Source: Deltaproteobacteria bacterium RBG_16_64_85 (GTDB taxonomy: Bacteria; Desulfobacterota; Deferrimicrobia; Deferrimicrobiales; Deferrimicrobiaceae). Taken from it: DNA of 44,952 nt. The DNA is taken from the NCBI GenBank assembly GCA_001798885.1, contig MGQW01000011.1, positions 1 through 44,952 of the forward strand, read 5' to 3'. Below are positions 1,954 to 9,515 of the stretch, piece by piece. Positions within the stretch are counted from its first letter, which is position 1. Every line of letters starts with the position of its first letter. The position numbers were made by a program, and so were the translations under genes. The notes beneath the pieces are model-generated. The model was not told where the DNA came from, searched no databases, and saw nothing but the letters and a program-made list of their open reading frames with translations.

Positions 1954-2250
1954 ATGACGACGCGGGTCCGGATGCTGTCCGGGTTCAATCACAACCTCAA
2001 ACACAAGGGGAAAATCTATCACATCCAGACCGAGGACGGGGGGAAGGACAACCCGCAGATCATCACCCACGCGTTTCTGGGCGGGGTGATCCTCGACACC
2101 GTCCGCCAGCCCTATGGCGACCTTCTGTTGAAACCGAACTGGCAGGATGCCCTCCGCGACCGAATGAAAGCGCAGCACCTCGAGGAGATCCGCAAGCTCT
2201 TTTCGGGAGCGTTCGACGCGCAGACGGAGACGTCGTCGGAAGATGATTGA
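1954..2250 (+). CDS. conserved hypothetical protein, 98 aa
   Basis: Starts at ATG 1954 behind AGGGGAA. The sequence LSGFNHNLKHKGKIYHIQTED followed by NPQIITHAFLGGVILDT resembles a small family I remember from deltaproteobacteria and myxobacteria, with no assigned function that I know of. The pattern suggests a compact beta-rich soluble protein (alternating hydrophobics up to about residue 55) followed by a helical C-terminus (DALRDRMKAQHLEEIRKLF). There is no signal peptide, membrane segment or metal motif. Its end overlaps the start of the FtsE-like gene by 8 bases, so it belongs to that operon; a link to FtsEX function is inferred only from this coupling. Confidence 0.8.
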   Translation: MTTRVRMLSGFNHNLKHKGKIYHIQTEDGGKDNPQIITHAFLGGVILDTVRQPYGDLLLKPNWQDALRDRMKAQHLEEIRKLFSGAFDAQTETSSEDD

Positions 2251-2926
2251 GGCGTTTCGCGTCGGGGCGGTTTCGCGCAACGGGACGCTCTGGGACGGGC
2301 TGGACCTGGCCGTAGGCGATGGCGAGGTTTGCGTCGTCACCGGCCCGCCCGCGAGCGGGAAAACCCTCCTTCTGCGGATCCTGCGGGGGGATCGCCGGCC
2401 GGACGCCGGCGATGTCGTGGTCGGGGGGGAATCGCTCTACCGAGGGAACCCGGGGGCCGTCAGGGCCTTCCAGGCCACGTCGGGCGTGATCCCCGAATCG
2501 TTTCCTGCCTGCGGAGGGCGCGCGATCGGTGATCTGTTCCGGATTTCCTCCGTGGCAGGGGCGGGGATCTCCGCGAGGGAACGAAAGGAGCGGGAGGAAG
2601 AGCTGCTCTCGTTGCTGGGCCTGCACGGCGCGCAGGACGCGGGGTTTTCGTCTCTGTCGGTCTCCGAAAGGGCACGGGTCTCGCTGGCCGTGGAGCTGTT
2701 CCGCGGCCCGAAGGTTCTCTTTGCGGACATGCTGCTCCACAACGCAGGAAGGGAATGGATGGAGATGCTGGGGGGGCTGTTCCGGGGGCTGGCGAGAGAA
2801 GGGAAGACGGTCCTCCTTGCGGAGAGGACGATTCCCGAGAAGTGGAAGGCCATGGAAAGCAGGGAAGGGATCGTCAAGGGACCGTTTCGCCTGTTCCGGT
2901 ACACAGCAAAGGGGGAAGTCCCGTGA
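2243..2926 (+). CDS. ftsE: divergent FtsE-like ABC ATPase with degenerate catalytic motifs
   Basis: 227 residues in the position of FtsE, directly before FtsX and an EnvC-like protein. FtsE normally hydrolyses ATP to drive FtsX and so switch on periplasmic amidases at the division site. Walker A is intact (GPPASGKT, Lys40). The rest is eroded: the Q-loop region reads SGVIPE, the signature is LSVSERAR instead of LSGGEQQR, Walker B is KVLFADM with Met163 where the catalytic Glu is expected, the D-loop is lost, and the H-loop reads LAERT with Arg195 for His. It may bind nucleotide but probably hydrolyses it poorly or not at all. The frame is intact with overlaps at both ends, so this is not an ordinary pseudogene. 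The ftsE name rests on context; a generic ABC protein is the alternative. Confidence 0.75.
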   Translation: MIEAFRVGAVSRNGTLWDGLDLAVGDGEVCVVTGPPASGKTLLLRILRGDRRPDAGDVVVGGESLYRGNPGAVRAFQATSGVIPESFPACGGRAIGDLFRISSVAGAGISARERKEREEELLSLLGLHGAQDAGFSSLSVSERARVSLAVELFRGPKVLFADMLLHNAGREWMEMLGGLFRGLAREGKTVLLAERTIPEKWKAMESREGIVKGPFRLFRYTAKGEVP

Positions 2927-3813
2927 TGACCGGCTCCTCCCTCCGGTGGATCGACTGGAAGCTCGCGCCAAAAGCGATGTTGCGGGAGACCGCGGGGCGG
3001 TTCTGCCTTCTCTTTCTGCTCGGTTCGTTCCTCTTGTCGATGCTGCTCTCCGGAGGAATGAACCGGTTTCTCTCCGAGCAGTGGGCCGTCACCGCGATCC
3101 TGCGCCTGTCGGTCTCGCCGGCGGAAGGACAGGGGATCGCGGGGAAGGCCGCGGGACTTCCGGCCGTGCGCTCGGCGGTCTACAAGGACGCGGAGGAGTC
3201 CTGGAAGGAGTTTCTTGCGGCGTATCCGGGGCTTTCGACCCTCCGGGGAGCGGGAGGGAATCCGCTTTCCGGCTATGTCGAAATCCGGATGCGTCCCCGC
3301 CGTTTCACGGAAGCGGACATCCAGGCGGTGGAGGCCGGCCTCCGCCCCCTCCCCCAGGTGGAAAGGATCCTGTCCGGGGGGGAAGTCCTGCCCCGCCTGC
3401 TCCGGGTCAGGGAGTGGGTGAACGCCTTCCTCTGGGCGGGGTTCGCCCTCCTTTGCACGGTGTCCTTCCTGGTTTTCCTCCTGCAGGAAAAGGCGCGATC
3501 CTCCTTTCTGGCGGCGGATTTCAATTTCCTGAGAGAGAGAGGGGTTTCGGTTCGAAGCATCATCGTCTCCCGGGCTTCGGGATCCCTGCTGACCGGCCTC
3601 CTCCTCTCTCTGGCGGCCACGGGAACCGCGGCTTTCCTGCTCTTCATTCTGGAAACCCGCCTGCCCCTTCTCGGCCGTGTGATCGGTCCCGCGCGGGAAA
3701 TCCCGACACTGCCCATCCTCATCCCCGCCTTGCTGTTTCTTTTCGCATCTGCGCTTGTTTCCGGCGCGGCATCCTCGCTGGGGTGGCGCGCGGCGCAGTC
3801 CCGCCCGGAATGA
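2926..3813 (+). CDS. ftsX: FtsX-like permease
   Basis: 295 residues from ATG 2926, which overlaps the stop of the ftsE-like gene (TGATG). The topology matches FtsX: a cytoplasmic N-terminus (LRWIDWKLAPKAMLRE), a first membrane segment at about 22-42, a periplasmic domain of about 120 residues, then three segments around 165-187, 219-243 and 254-285. In known systems FtsX transmits the FtsE ATPase state to a periplasmic LytM activator such as EnvC. The next gene encodes exactly such a protein and overlaps by 4 bases. A longer upstream in-frame reading exists but has no support, because the ATG at 2926 is the coupled start. Confidence 0.88.
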   Translation: MTGSSLRWIDWKLAPKAMLRETAGRFCLLFLLGSFLLSMLLSGGMNRFLSEQWAVTAILRLSVSPAEGQGIAGKAAGLPAVRSAVYKDAEESWKEFLAAYPGLSTLRGAGGNPLSGYVEIRMRPRRFTEADIQAVEAGLRPLPQVERILSGGEVLPRLLRVREWVNAFLWAGFALLCTVSFLVFLLQEKARSSFLAADFNFLRERGVSVRSIIVSRASGSLLTGLLLSLAATGTAAFLLFILETRLPLLGRVIGPAREIPTLPILIPALLFLFASALVSGAASSLGWRAAQSRPE

Positions 3814-4979
3814 TGTTTCCCGGACGACTTGCGTGGATCGCGGCCTGCCTCGCGACGGGGTTGGCTCTCGCCTCCTTCGCCCCCGCCGCGGATTCCCTGG
3901 ATAAGCTCCGGCAGGAAAAGGCGCGGTTGACGGAGATGAAGAAGGGAGCCGAGAGGGCGGCGGCGGAGCTCGCGGAAACCCTCCGGCGGGAGAAAATGAC
4001 CCGAAGCCGGGTGGACGACCTCCAGACGCGCCTGGCGAAGCAGCGGCGGTTGATTGCCCGAATCGATCGGAGGCTTTCGGAGCTTGGCGGACAGATGGGC
4101 CAGGCGGAGCGGGAGGTCCGCTCGCTCGAGGAGGAACGGGGCAAGTCGCAGCGCGGCCTGTCGGCGGCGACGGCGGAGGTTTTTGCATTCGAGCGGGGAA
4201 GACCCGGTGCGCTGTTGGAACCCTCCGACGGGGAGCGCCAGCGCTACTTCGCCCGCCGGATCTTGGTTGAGGAGCTCTCCCGTTACGGCCGCCTGACGGC
4301 CGACCAGGCGGAAAAGGAGAGGATCCTTTCCGGCATCGAACGCAGGCTCGAGGACTCGGAGCGGCGGATGGCGACGCAGAGGAAGGTGGGGGAGAAGCTG
4401 GCCTCCCAGCAGGAGGCCGAGCGCCAGAGGCTGGCGGAGATCGAGAAGAAGAAAAAGGAGAAGGCCAGGGAGCTTCGGACCCTTCGCGCGCGCATCGCAA
4501 GGATGGAAGCGTTGGTTTCGAGGATCGAGCGGCAGGTGCGGCAGAGGGAACCGCGGAAGCAGGGTCCCAGGCAGTTTTCCGGCGTTCCCGGAGGGCTGGT
4601 CCTTCCGCTGGCGGGGAAGGTGGTAGGGCGATTCGGGAAGCAGCGGGACCCCGTTTTCGACGTGGACGTGGAGAACCGGGGAGTGGAGATCGAAGCTGCC
4701 TCCGGTGCGGTCATCCACGCAATGGGCGGCGGGGAGGTGGTTTTTGTGGGAAGCGTATCGGGTTTCGGCAAGGTGCTCATCCTTCAGCACGGGAGCGGGC
4801 TTTTCTCGGTTTACGGGAAGGCCGATACCTTTTCCGTGAAGCAGGGACAGGCGGTCGCCGCCGGGGAGGCCGTCGGAAAGCTGCCCGTGAACCCGGAAGG
4901 AAAATCGGTGCTATACTTGGAGCTCAGGGCCGCGGGGACTGCCTTGGATCCGACGACGGTGATCCCGCTTTCCCGTTGA
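3810..4979 (+). CDS. envC: EnvC-like murein hydrolase activator (coiled coil plus degenerate LytM domain)
   Basis: 389 residues from ATG 3810, overlapping the ftsX stop by 4 bases. A signal peptide (MMFPGRLAWIAACLATGLALAS) is followed by long coiled coils at about 30-110 and 160-235 and a C-terminal LytM/M23 fold at about 250-389. The zinc-binding residues of active M23 peptidases are missing: HxxxD is replaced around ENRGVEIEA, and the HxH segment reads SVYGKAD. This matches EnvC of E. coli, which does not cut peptidoglycan but activates amidases under FtsEX control. By contrast the M23 gene at 8658 keeps both motifs. The role is inferred from family, residues and neighbours. Confidence 0.88.
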   Translation: MMFPGRLAWIAACLATGLALASFAPAADSLDKLRQEKARLTEMKKGAERAAAELAETLRREKMTRSRVDDLQTRLAKQRRLIARIDRRLSELGGQMGQAEREVRSLEEERGKSQRGLSAATAEVFAFERGRPGALLEPSDGERQRYFARRILVEELSRYGRLTADQAEKERILSGIERRLEDSERRMATQRKVGEKLASQQEAERQRLAEIEKKKKEKARELRTLRARIARMEALVSRIERQVRQREPRKQGPRQFSGVPGGLVLPLAGKVVGRFGKQRDPVFDVDVENRGVEIEAASGAVIHAMGGGEVVFVGSVSGFGKVLILQHGSGLFSVYGKADTFSVKQGQAVAAGEAVGKLPVNPEGKSVLYLELRAAGTALDPTTVIPLSR

Positions 4980-7335: not shown

Positions 7336-8661
7336 ATGGGCGGGGTTCTGACCGTAACCGAACTGACTGCGCGCATCAAGGCGTCCCTGGAAGGAGCCTT
7401 CCGCTCCGTTCGCGTGGAGGGGGAGATTTCCAACTACAAGCTTTATCCCTCCGGACACCGGTACTTCACGCTCAAGGATGAAGGAGCCCAGGTCAGGGTG
7501 GTGCTGTTCCGCGGGAGGGAGCGGTTCATCATCGGGGAGATCCGGGACGGGCAGACGGTCATCGTCTCGGGATCCCTTGGCGTGTACGAGAAGAAGGGGG
7601 AGTACCAGATCTACGCCCAGTCGGTGGAGGTTCGCGGCCTGGGCAGTCTCCTTCTGGAACTGGAAAAGCGAAAAGTGCGGCTTGCCGCGGAAGGTCTTTT
7701 CGATCCGGAGAGGAAGCGGCCGCTTCCCCCCTTCCCGGAGCGGATCGGCATCGTCACCTCCCGGCAGGGCGCGGCCCTCCGGGACATGATCCGGGTCGCG
7801 CGGAACCGGTGGCCGGCCATCGGCATCACGCTGGCTCCCGCGCAGGTACAGGGGGAGAGTGCCGCGGAGGACATCGCGGCGGCGCTCTCCGCAATGGTTT
7901 CGCAGGGCAAGGTCGACCTGATCATCGTGGGCCGCGGGGGGGGCTCGGTGGAGGATCTCTGGGCGTTCAACGAGGAGGTGGTGGTGCGGGCGATCGCTTC
8001 CTCGTCCGTCCCGACGATCAGCGCGGTGGGGCACGAGACCGACTTTACCCTTTCCGACCTCGCGGCGGACCACCGTGCCCCTACGCCGACCGCGGCTGCG
8101 CAGATGGCTGTTCCGGATCGCGCGGAGGTGGTCGAGCGCATCTCCGGGCTTGTCCTGCGGGCGCGGCGGGCGGAGCGGCACCACCGGGAAACGCTCCGAA
8201 GGGAATTCCGGATCCTCGCCGGCGCGCTCGTCGATCCCAGGCCCCTCCTCCAGGCCCGCCGGTATGCCCTGGCGAAGTCGACGGACGCCCTGGCGGAGAG
8301 GATGCAGGAGATCTCCCGGCGATCCCGGGAACGGGTGTCGGACCTCACGACGGCTCTCCGCCTCGGCGCGCCCGGAGCGTGGGTTTCCCGGAAGCGAGGG
8401 GAGATCGCGGTTCTCCTGGAGCGCGCGGTACGGCGGATGGACGCAGGGCGTGCGGGGTGTCGGGGGAGACTCGAGATCTGCGGCGGGAAGCTTGCGGCCC
8501 TCGACCCGACGGCCGTCCTGTCGAGGGGATACGCCATTGCGACGGTACGATCCTCCGGACGCGCCGTGCGGACCGTGTCGGAAGCCACGCCCGGCGCGGT
8601 CCTCGATGTCCGCGTGTCCGACGGGGTGTTCGGCGCGGTCGTGGAAGGGGAGCAAGGTTGA
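7336..8661 (+). CDS. xseA: exodeoxyribonuclease VII large subunit
   Basis: 441 residues, near the usual 400-460. With XseB it forms exonuclease VII, which degrades single-stranded DNA to short oligonucleotides. The N-terminal OB-fold is recognisable (SVRVEGEISNYKLYPSGHRYFTLKD written here in parts: EGEISNYK, SGHRYFTLKD, VVLFRG). The catalytic domain has ERIGIVTSRQGAALRD, VDLIIVGRGGGSVEDLW and SAVGHETDFTL, then a long helical arm at about 265-370 and a C-terminal RGYAI strand. It is separated from xseB by an M23 peptidase gene whose start overlaps its stop. Confidence 0.97.
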   Translation: MGGVLTVTELTARIKASLEGAFRSVRVEGEISNYKLYPSGHRYFTLKDEGAQVRVVLFRGRERFIIGEIRDGQTVIVSGSLGVYEKKGEYQIYAQSVEVRGLGSLLLELEKRKVRLAAEGLFDPERKRPLPPFPERIGIVTSRQGAALRDMIRVARNRWPAIGITLAPAQVQGESAAEDIAAALSAMVSQGKVDLIIVGRGGGSVEDLWAFNEEVVVRAIASSSVPTISAVGHETDFTLSDLAADHRAPTPTAAAQMAVPDRAEVVERISGLVLRARRAERHHRETLRREFRILAGALVDPRPLLQARRYALAKSTDALAERMQEISRRSRERVSDLTTALRLGAPGAWVSRKRGEIAVLLERAVRRMDAGRAGCRGRLEICGGKLAALDPTAVLSRGYAIATVRSSGRAVRTVSEATPGAVLDVRVSDGVFGAVVEGEQG

Positions 8662-9515
8662 GAAAAGCCGTGTCCATGGCGTGGGGCCTCCTCCTGGTTC
8701 CGCTCTTTTTCGCGAGGGGGGAGACGATCTCCGTTTCGGTTTCCAGCCGCTTCCCCGATCAGGGAGACCCGGTTCTCGTGGAGGTTTCCGTCGCTCCCCC
8801 TCCCGACAACCTCGCGATGGTCTGGAAGGGGCGTACGTTTCCCTTGATGAAAGCCGGGAACGGCCGGTTCCTTGCGTTGATCGGGATCGACCTGATGGAG
8901 CCCCCCGGAAAGGCCCCGCTTTCGGTCGTGGCGGACCGGGACGGTACCACCGCGCGCCTTGACCTGGAGCTCGCGGTCAGGGAGAGGGCGTTTCCCGTCC
9001 AGGTGCTTTCCCTGCCGAAAAAAATGGCGGAGTTCGACGCCGGTACCCTCGAGCGGATCCGCAGGGAGGCGCAAGAGCTGGAGGTTCGGCTTGCCGCCGT
9101 CTCCGCGCCCGCCTGGGATCTTCCTTTCCTCCCGCCGGTCGAGGATTACCGGCCCGCTGGTTTCGGCGCCCGCAGGGTGATCAATCGAGAACCCCGCAGC
9201 CCCCACGCGGGGGTGGACCTCCACCTTCCGGCGGGGACGCCCGTGAGGGCGATCGCGGCGGGCGCCGTGGCGTTCTCCGGCGAGCAGTTTTTCGGGGGAC
9301 GGTCCGTTGTGCTGGACCACGGGGGCGGCCTGTTCAGCATCTATTACCACCTCCAGGAAACCGTGGTATCGGAGGGACAGAGCGTGGGGAAAGGGGAGAG
9401 GATCGGCGCGGTGGGCTCGAGCGGGCGCGCCACGGGTCCGCACCTCCACTTCGGCATTCGTGCAGCCGGCGGCCGGGTCGATCCCTCCCTGCTCTTCGGG
9501 CCGTCATTTCATTGA
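8658..9515 (+). CDS. M23 family metallopeptidase with intact LytM active site
   Basis: 285 residues from TTG 8658, which overlaps the xseA stop (TTGA) and follows GGGGAG by 5 bases. In-frame GTG 8670 and ATG 8676 are weaker alternatives. The N-terminus (LRKAVSMAWGLLLVPLFFARG) is a signal peptide. An Ig-like beta domain covers about 25-115, then a linker and a C-terminal M23 domain with SPHAGVDLHLP (His and Asp zinc ligands) and HLHFG (second His pair). It is therefore likely an active periplasmic endopeptidase cutting peptide cross-links in peptidoglycan, unlike the EnvC-like protein upstream. Position between xseA and xseB is unrelated to nuclease function. Confidence 0.9.
   Translation: MRKAVSMAWGLLLVPLFFARGETISVSVSSRFPDQGDPVLVEVSVAPPPDNLAMVWKGRTFPLMKAGNGRFLALIGIDLMEPPGKAPLSVVADRDGTTARLDLELAVRERAFPVQVLSLPKKMAEFDAGTLERIRREAQELEVRLAAVSAPAWDLPFLPPVEDYRPAGFGARRVINREPRSPHAGVDLHLPAGTPVRAIAAGAVAFSGEQFFGGRSVVLDHGGGLFSIYYHLQETVVSEGQSVGKGERIGAVGSSGRATGPHLHFGIRAAGGRVDPSLLFGPSFH

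Follow-up and report, generated by a model that had tools for sequence, protein, structure and literature searches.

The ftsE-like gene found in the window, the whole stretch of 44,952 nt that was analysed, encodes a protein whose operon, fold and partner mark it as an FtsE ortholog and whose catalytic motifs disqualify it as an ABC ATPase. With a probability of roughly two in three, the protein is a hydrolysis-dead, probably nucleotide-holding FtsE that functions as a pseudo-ATPase scaffold or clamp for EnvC. Hereafter, class and phylum refer to the bacterial class and the phylum of the host genome. The class is one of uncultured bacteria; the close relatives that bear names are uncultured Deltaproteobacteria MAGs, and the host may belong to the MBNT15/Deferrimicrobia lineage.

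The operon and the identity of the ftsE-like protein

The gene order in the window is romY-ftsE-ftsX-envC-ctpA, with the following features:

1954..2250, + strand: romY-like gene, 98 aa, RomY N-terminal domain (NCBIfam NF053858, 101 bits, cut-off 50)
2243..2926, + strand: ftsE-like gene, 227 aa, with an ABC fold that is missing the hydrolysis motifs
2926..3813, + strand: ftsX, 295 aa, TM1-ECD-TM2-coupling helix-TM3-TM4 (PF18075, 28.9 bits)
3810..4979, + strand: envC, coiled coil and LytM domain with degenerate zinc site (PF01551, 68 bits; NF008644 (EnvC), 53 bits)

The ftsE-like gene lies among murI, the gene for the RomY N-terminal domain, ftsX, envC and the genes for an S41 protease of the ctp type and for a divergent polysaccharide deacetylase. 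It is directly upstream of ftsX with envC next, and translational coupling was found in both families of the class. The overlaps are 8 bp for romY/ftsE, 1 bp for ftsE/ftsX (TGATG) and 4 bp for ftsX/envC. The open reading frame, its coordinates and its coupling to neighbours at both ends are as described in an earlier sequence-only reading of this DNA.

The best NCBIfam match of the protein was FtsE (TIGR02673) at 61 bits, far below the cut-off of 265, so that the sequence model did not recognize it as FtsE. The Pfam ABC_tran domain scored 56 bits, and sequence profiles alone did not single out FtsE among the NBDs of the PDB. The AF2 model (mean pLDDT 87.9) was searched with Foldseek and ranks 1-4 were solved FtsE structures (8hd0, 8ymc, 8tzj, 6z4w) with TM of about 0.72-0.79. 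The operon, the fold and the conserved partner together suggest that the class FtsE pairs with FtsX.

The low score of 61 bits against 265 could point to a decaying gene, an assembly or frame error, or an unrelated ABC protein that moved beside ftsX; however, this explanation is barely credible. The same state was found in 24 genomes, including the one-contig genome G013/CP070783, with no stops and with dN/dS below 0.5. The recurrence in 24 genomes rules out a sequencing or frame error, in agreement with the earlier view that the frame is open. An unrelated ABC protein is at odds with the romY-ftsE-ftsX-envC placement, which is conserved in both class families, and with solved FtsE being the closest folds.

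Catalytic motifs and their distribution in the phylum

The motifs were scored in an alignment of 24 class orthologs with 30 canonical FtsE from the same phylum. The positions in the window are:

2273..2275, + strand: A-loop position 11, Ser here and Tyr in canonical FtsE (Tyr in 29/30 canonical, 0/24 class)
2342..2365, + strand: Walker A residues 34-41, GPPASGKT; G39, K40 and T/S41 invariant in the class
2495..2497, + strand: Q-loop position Glu85; Glu in 23/24 and Asp in 1 of the class, Gln in 30/30 canonical
2654..2668, + strand: signature 138-142, LSVSE (canonical LSGGE); S139 and E142 invariant in the class
2726..2731, + strand: end of Walker B, D162-M163; Asp invariant, catalytic Glu absent in 24/24 of the class
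2747..2749, + strand: D-loop Gly169; Gly in 24/24 of the class, Asp in canonical FtsE
2822..2827, + strand: H-loop Glu194-Arg195, invariant in the class; Thr-His in canonical FtsE; beta strand 189-194 in the model

The Walker B Glu, Q-loop Gln, H-loop His, LSGG(Q/E) signature and D-loop Asp that define an active ABC ATPase were all absent from 24 of 24 class orthologs. Canonical FtsE retained the Walker B Glu, the second signature Gly and the switch His in 30/30 and the D-loop Asp in 29/30. The class has Ser or Thr at the signature Gly position in the pattern LSxSE. A gapless reading of the H-loop sets LLAER against VVATH while MAFFT opens a gap of two residues, and in either case there is no His. 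The alignment bore out every replacement named from the sequence alone, with Glu85, LSVSE, Met163, Gly169 and Arg195 at these sites in the window, and the loss of the A-loop Tyr, also in 24/24, is a further change not listed previously. The description of Walker A as intact holds in part. GPPASGKTL fits GxxxxGK[ST], although it departs from the usual GPSGAGKTT at two residues, the inner Gly37 and the second Thr, Thr42; in the class Gly37 is changed in 19/24, Thr42 in 23/24 and the first Gly is replaced in 2/24. The P-loop GxxxxGK[ST], apart from that first Gly, and the Walker B Asp are present. Residues kept in 24/24 are G39, K40, T/S41, L138, S139, E142, R145 and D162, whereas E151, R154, G169, R181, E194 and R195 are among the invariant residues specific to the class. 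These new invariant residues indicate re-specialisation of FtsE rather than drift or decay. The combined motif losses strongly suggest that the class FtsE has lost hydrolysis.

In canonical ABC proteins, the Q-loop and H-loop positions form part of the lining of the nucleotide site. Since E194 and R195 are invariant, E85 is found in 23/24 and the three occupy such positions, Glu85 or Glu194 might conceivably serve as a replacement base. Catalysis would then be re-wired, Glu85 or Glu194 with Arg195 replacing the canonical Glu and His for slow hydrolysis of nucleotide in a non-canonical site. This alternative is improbable in view of five elements having changed together, among them the D-loop and the signature Gly, from which the site is assembled across the dimer, and we know of no ABC ATPase with such re-wired catalysis.

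An ortholog with the same pattern was found in 24 of the 26 class genomes, representing both class families; one of these relatives is the single-contig chromosome mentioned above. The two genomes lacking it are MAGs that are 75% and 78% complete, where a match to FtsX was also absent. Outside the class, 95 phylum genomes have FtsE adjoining FtsX. The Walker B Glu was present in 95/95, none lacked more than 2 of the 6 positions tested and full motif loss was found in none of these FtsX-linked proteins. A class profile searched against 297 phylum genomes gave no match outside the class at E<=1e-33. The recurrence of the motif set in 24 genomes, against 0/95 others of the phylum, is far beyond chance. 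The dN/dS of ftsE (NG86) was 0.12-0.45 over 13 pairs, similar to or below that of ftsX, and the gene is under purifying selection. In the tree, class proteins formed one clade (SH-aLRT 99) on a stem of 2.15 changes per column; the tree has long branches and did not separate a position of this clade inside canonical FtsE from one beside it. The single clade on a long stem is consistent with one origin of the motif loss.

Partial changes were observed elsewhere in the phylum. In family f9 (L149/G032, L249/G211, L252/G104, L283/G274 and L294/G233) the switch His is replaced by Gln or Arg and in two members the Q-loop Gln by Pro, with the Walker B Glu kept across the family; this partial erosion may be an intermediate state. 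Family f20 (L188/G043, L263/G194) has the Q-loop Gln replaced by Glu, as in the class, and family f91 (L261/G271, L250/G310) has changes in the signature (LSASE) or D-loop.

The host genome, which is 99% complete, was searched for a second canonical ftsE as had been proposed. Among some 40 NBD-like matches none scored above the FtsE cut-off. A single FtsX_ECD protein was found, which leaves the genome without another FtsX, and the search revealed no second canonical FtsE/FtsX pair. The five most FtsE-like NBDs adjoin their own permeases of the MacB, ABC3 or LolC type, and a second canonical FtsE was ruled out since these top NBDs belong to MacB, ABC3 and LolCDE type systems. The number of NBD-like matches leaves candidates for a heterodimer in which another canonical NBD supplies hydrolysis to the class FtsE, but the neighbouring permeases of the most FtsE-like ones speak against this very unlikely arrangement. 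Moreover, both composite sites of such a heterodimer would remain faulty, because the class FtsE has lost the Walker B Glu as well as the signature.

FtsX, EnvC and the RomY-like gene

The FtsX protein scored above the PF18075 cut-off and has the four-TM ABC3 fold. Its model (pLDDT 79) retrieved solved FtsX at Foldseek ranks 1-12 and contains a short helix, 196-204, at the place of the coupling helix. In canonical FtsX no other part is as well conserved as the surrounding segment, which is rewritten in the class:

3496..3570, + strand: FtsX coupling segment, residues 191-215; identity 0.55 between canonical proteins, 0.13 between class and canonical

The canonical coupling motif EIxxLxGAxxxFIxxP...E..QG is lost from the product of 2926-3813, which has F(L)xxRG instead. 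The EnvC-binding ECD has an identity of 0.23 between class and canonical FtsX compared to 0.32 between canonical proteins. As judged from these comparisons, the cytoplasmic coupling side of FtsX changed along with FtsE while the periplasmic side stayed. FtsX and EnvC are both of full length, as had been thought, but the coupling segment of FtsX is divergent.

The rewritten segment is also compatible with the main rival to a nucleotide-holding clamp, that of a purely structural adaptor. FtsE without nucleotide would then complete or stabilise the FtsX dimer, or link FtsX to FtsZ or FtsA. The loss of the A-loop Tyr (24/24) and the changes to Gly37 (19/24) and the second Thr of Walker A (23/24) fit such an adaptor. 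It is nevertheless considered unlikely, since the invariance of G39, K40, T/S41, S139 and D162 in 24/24 would be unexplained without nucleotide.

The EnvC zinc ligands are replaced in the class and also in canonical EnvC of the phylum, as expected for the amidase-activator type. The genome encodes FtsA and a single Amidase_3 protein with an upstream AMIN-like region (AMIN read by eye). A second M23-type protein is encoded downstream of xseA at about 8630-9515 (+ strand) with a full zinc site (HxxxD...HLHF), placing an apparently active LytM enzyme near the inactive EnvC.

The romY gene overlaps ftsE in most of the class and abuts it in one relative, and is beside ftsE wherever class genomes carry it. 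Four phylum genomes outside the class likewise have romY ahead of a canonical ftsE; the linkage is therefore older than the motif loss, and RomY was ruled out as a compensation unique to the class. In Myxococcus, RomY is a co-GAP of MglA with MglB (PMC9481161), and no link of RomY to FtsEX was found in that paper. The joining of a RomY N-terminal-domain gene to ftsE (1954-2250 in the window; loci L103, L104, L106 and L107) connects a polarity-type regulator with FtsEX, and this connection was found in no paper. A role for RomY in gating FtsEX is speculation. It is also doubtful that the class FtsEX-EnvC is no longer driven by ATP and that FtsE has become a receptor that passes on the signal of another protein, such as the RomY-like one, with the amidase gated by protein contact.

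Role of the complex and comparison with known systems

The sequence-only reading took ATP hydrolysis by FtsE to drive amidase activation. The published work does not agree with this premise, since in E. coli and P. aeruginosa it is ATP binding that activates the EnvC-amidase system, exposing the LytM domain of EnvC, and hydrolysis that resets it (PMC12505981, PMC11139282). ATP-locked FtsEX activates EnvC-AmiB in vitro (PMC11139282). Hydrolysis-dead FtsEX of E. coli still recruits EnvC and partly supports cell separation, and blocks septal peptidoglycan synthesis through FtsA (PMC7343993). The FtsE mutations E163Q and D162N are harmful in E. coli (PMC12505981, PMC7343993), a point against a hydrolysis-dead FtsE, with which other parts of the divisome would have had to adapt in the class.

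The suggestion of a lineage with binding-only signalling or with an adaptor was supported in part, in that FtsE without the hydrolysis machinery is lineage-wide. Between binding and a pure adaptor the sequence points both ways. K40, T/S41, S139 and D162 are invariant, as expected for binding, and a bound nucleotide would account for the conservation of GK[ST], the signature Ser and the Walker B Asp. Ordinary binding of ATP is made less likely by the missing A-loop Tyr and the altered inner residues of Walker A. We infer that the class FtsE probably retains nucleotide and acts as a recruiter of EnvC. In the favored mechanism of a pseudo-ATPase scaffold or clamp, ATP hydrolysis would have been lost once, in the ancestor of the class, and FtsE kept as a pseudo-ATPase. 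Nucleotide held as a structural cofactor would produce a clamp with no hydrolytic reset, and the rewritten coupling segment of FtsX would make the connection of FtsE to the membrane part different, weaker or static. The FtsEX complex would mainly place EnvC at the septum via the conserved periplasmic domain of FtsX, where EnvC would activate the single Amidase_3 protein of the genome, the timing of amidase activity presumably being set elsewhere.

The system shares with canonical FtsEX-EnvC (E. coli, P. aeruginosa, V. cholerae; TIGR02673) the ftsE-ftsX-envC operon, the ABC fold, the P-loop Lys, the Walker B Asp, the signature Ser and an FtsX partner with an EnvC-binding domain. It differs in that FtsE is without the catalytic Glu, Q-loop Gln, D-loop Asp, switch His, signature Gly-Gly and A-loop Tyr, with a score of 61 bits against the FtsE cut-off of 265, and that the FtsX coupling segment is rewritten. 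Family f9 shares the replacement of the switch His and, in two members, a Q-loop change, but keeps the Walker B Glu, D-loop and signature. In the heterodimeric ABC proteins TmrAB, CFTR and TAP, an NBD has likewise lost its catalytic Glu, signature or His in nature. They keep one consensus composite site, whereas in an FtsE homodimer both halves are degenerate and none is left. The laboratory FtsE mutants E163Q and D162N, which lost hydrolysis and still assembled with FtsX and EnvC (PMC7343993, PMC11139282), resemble the class FtsE, for which loss of hydrolysis is indicated by its motifs. The class state is natural, fixed in the class and involves many positions at once, while the mutants block division in E. 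coli. No report of a naturally hydrolysis-dead FtsE was found among open-licence papers.

ATP turnover by FtsE has been held necessary for division and for reset of the amidase switch in the bacteria studied. With a class that is without the hydrolysis residues and shows signs of co-adaptation in FtsX, nature offers a way to tell the FtsEX functions that depend on hydrolysis (candidates are septal synthesis via FtsA and amidase reset) from those needing only assembly and recruitment; the FtsX coupling segment is the place to seek compensation. Overall, the FtsEX-EnvC switch of the class probably works as a scaffold or binding-only clamp, against the view that ATP use is obligatory.
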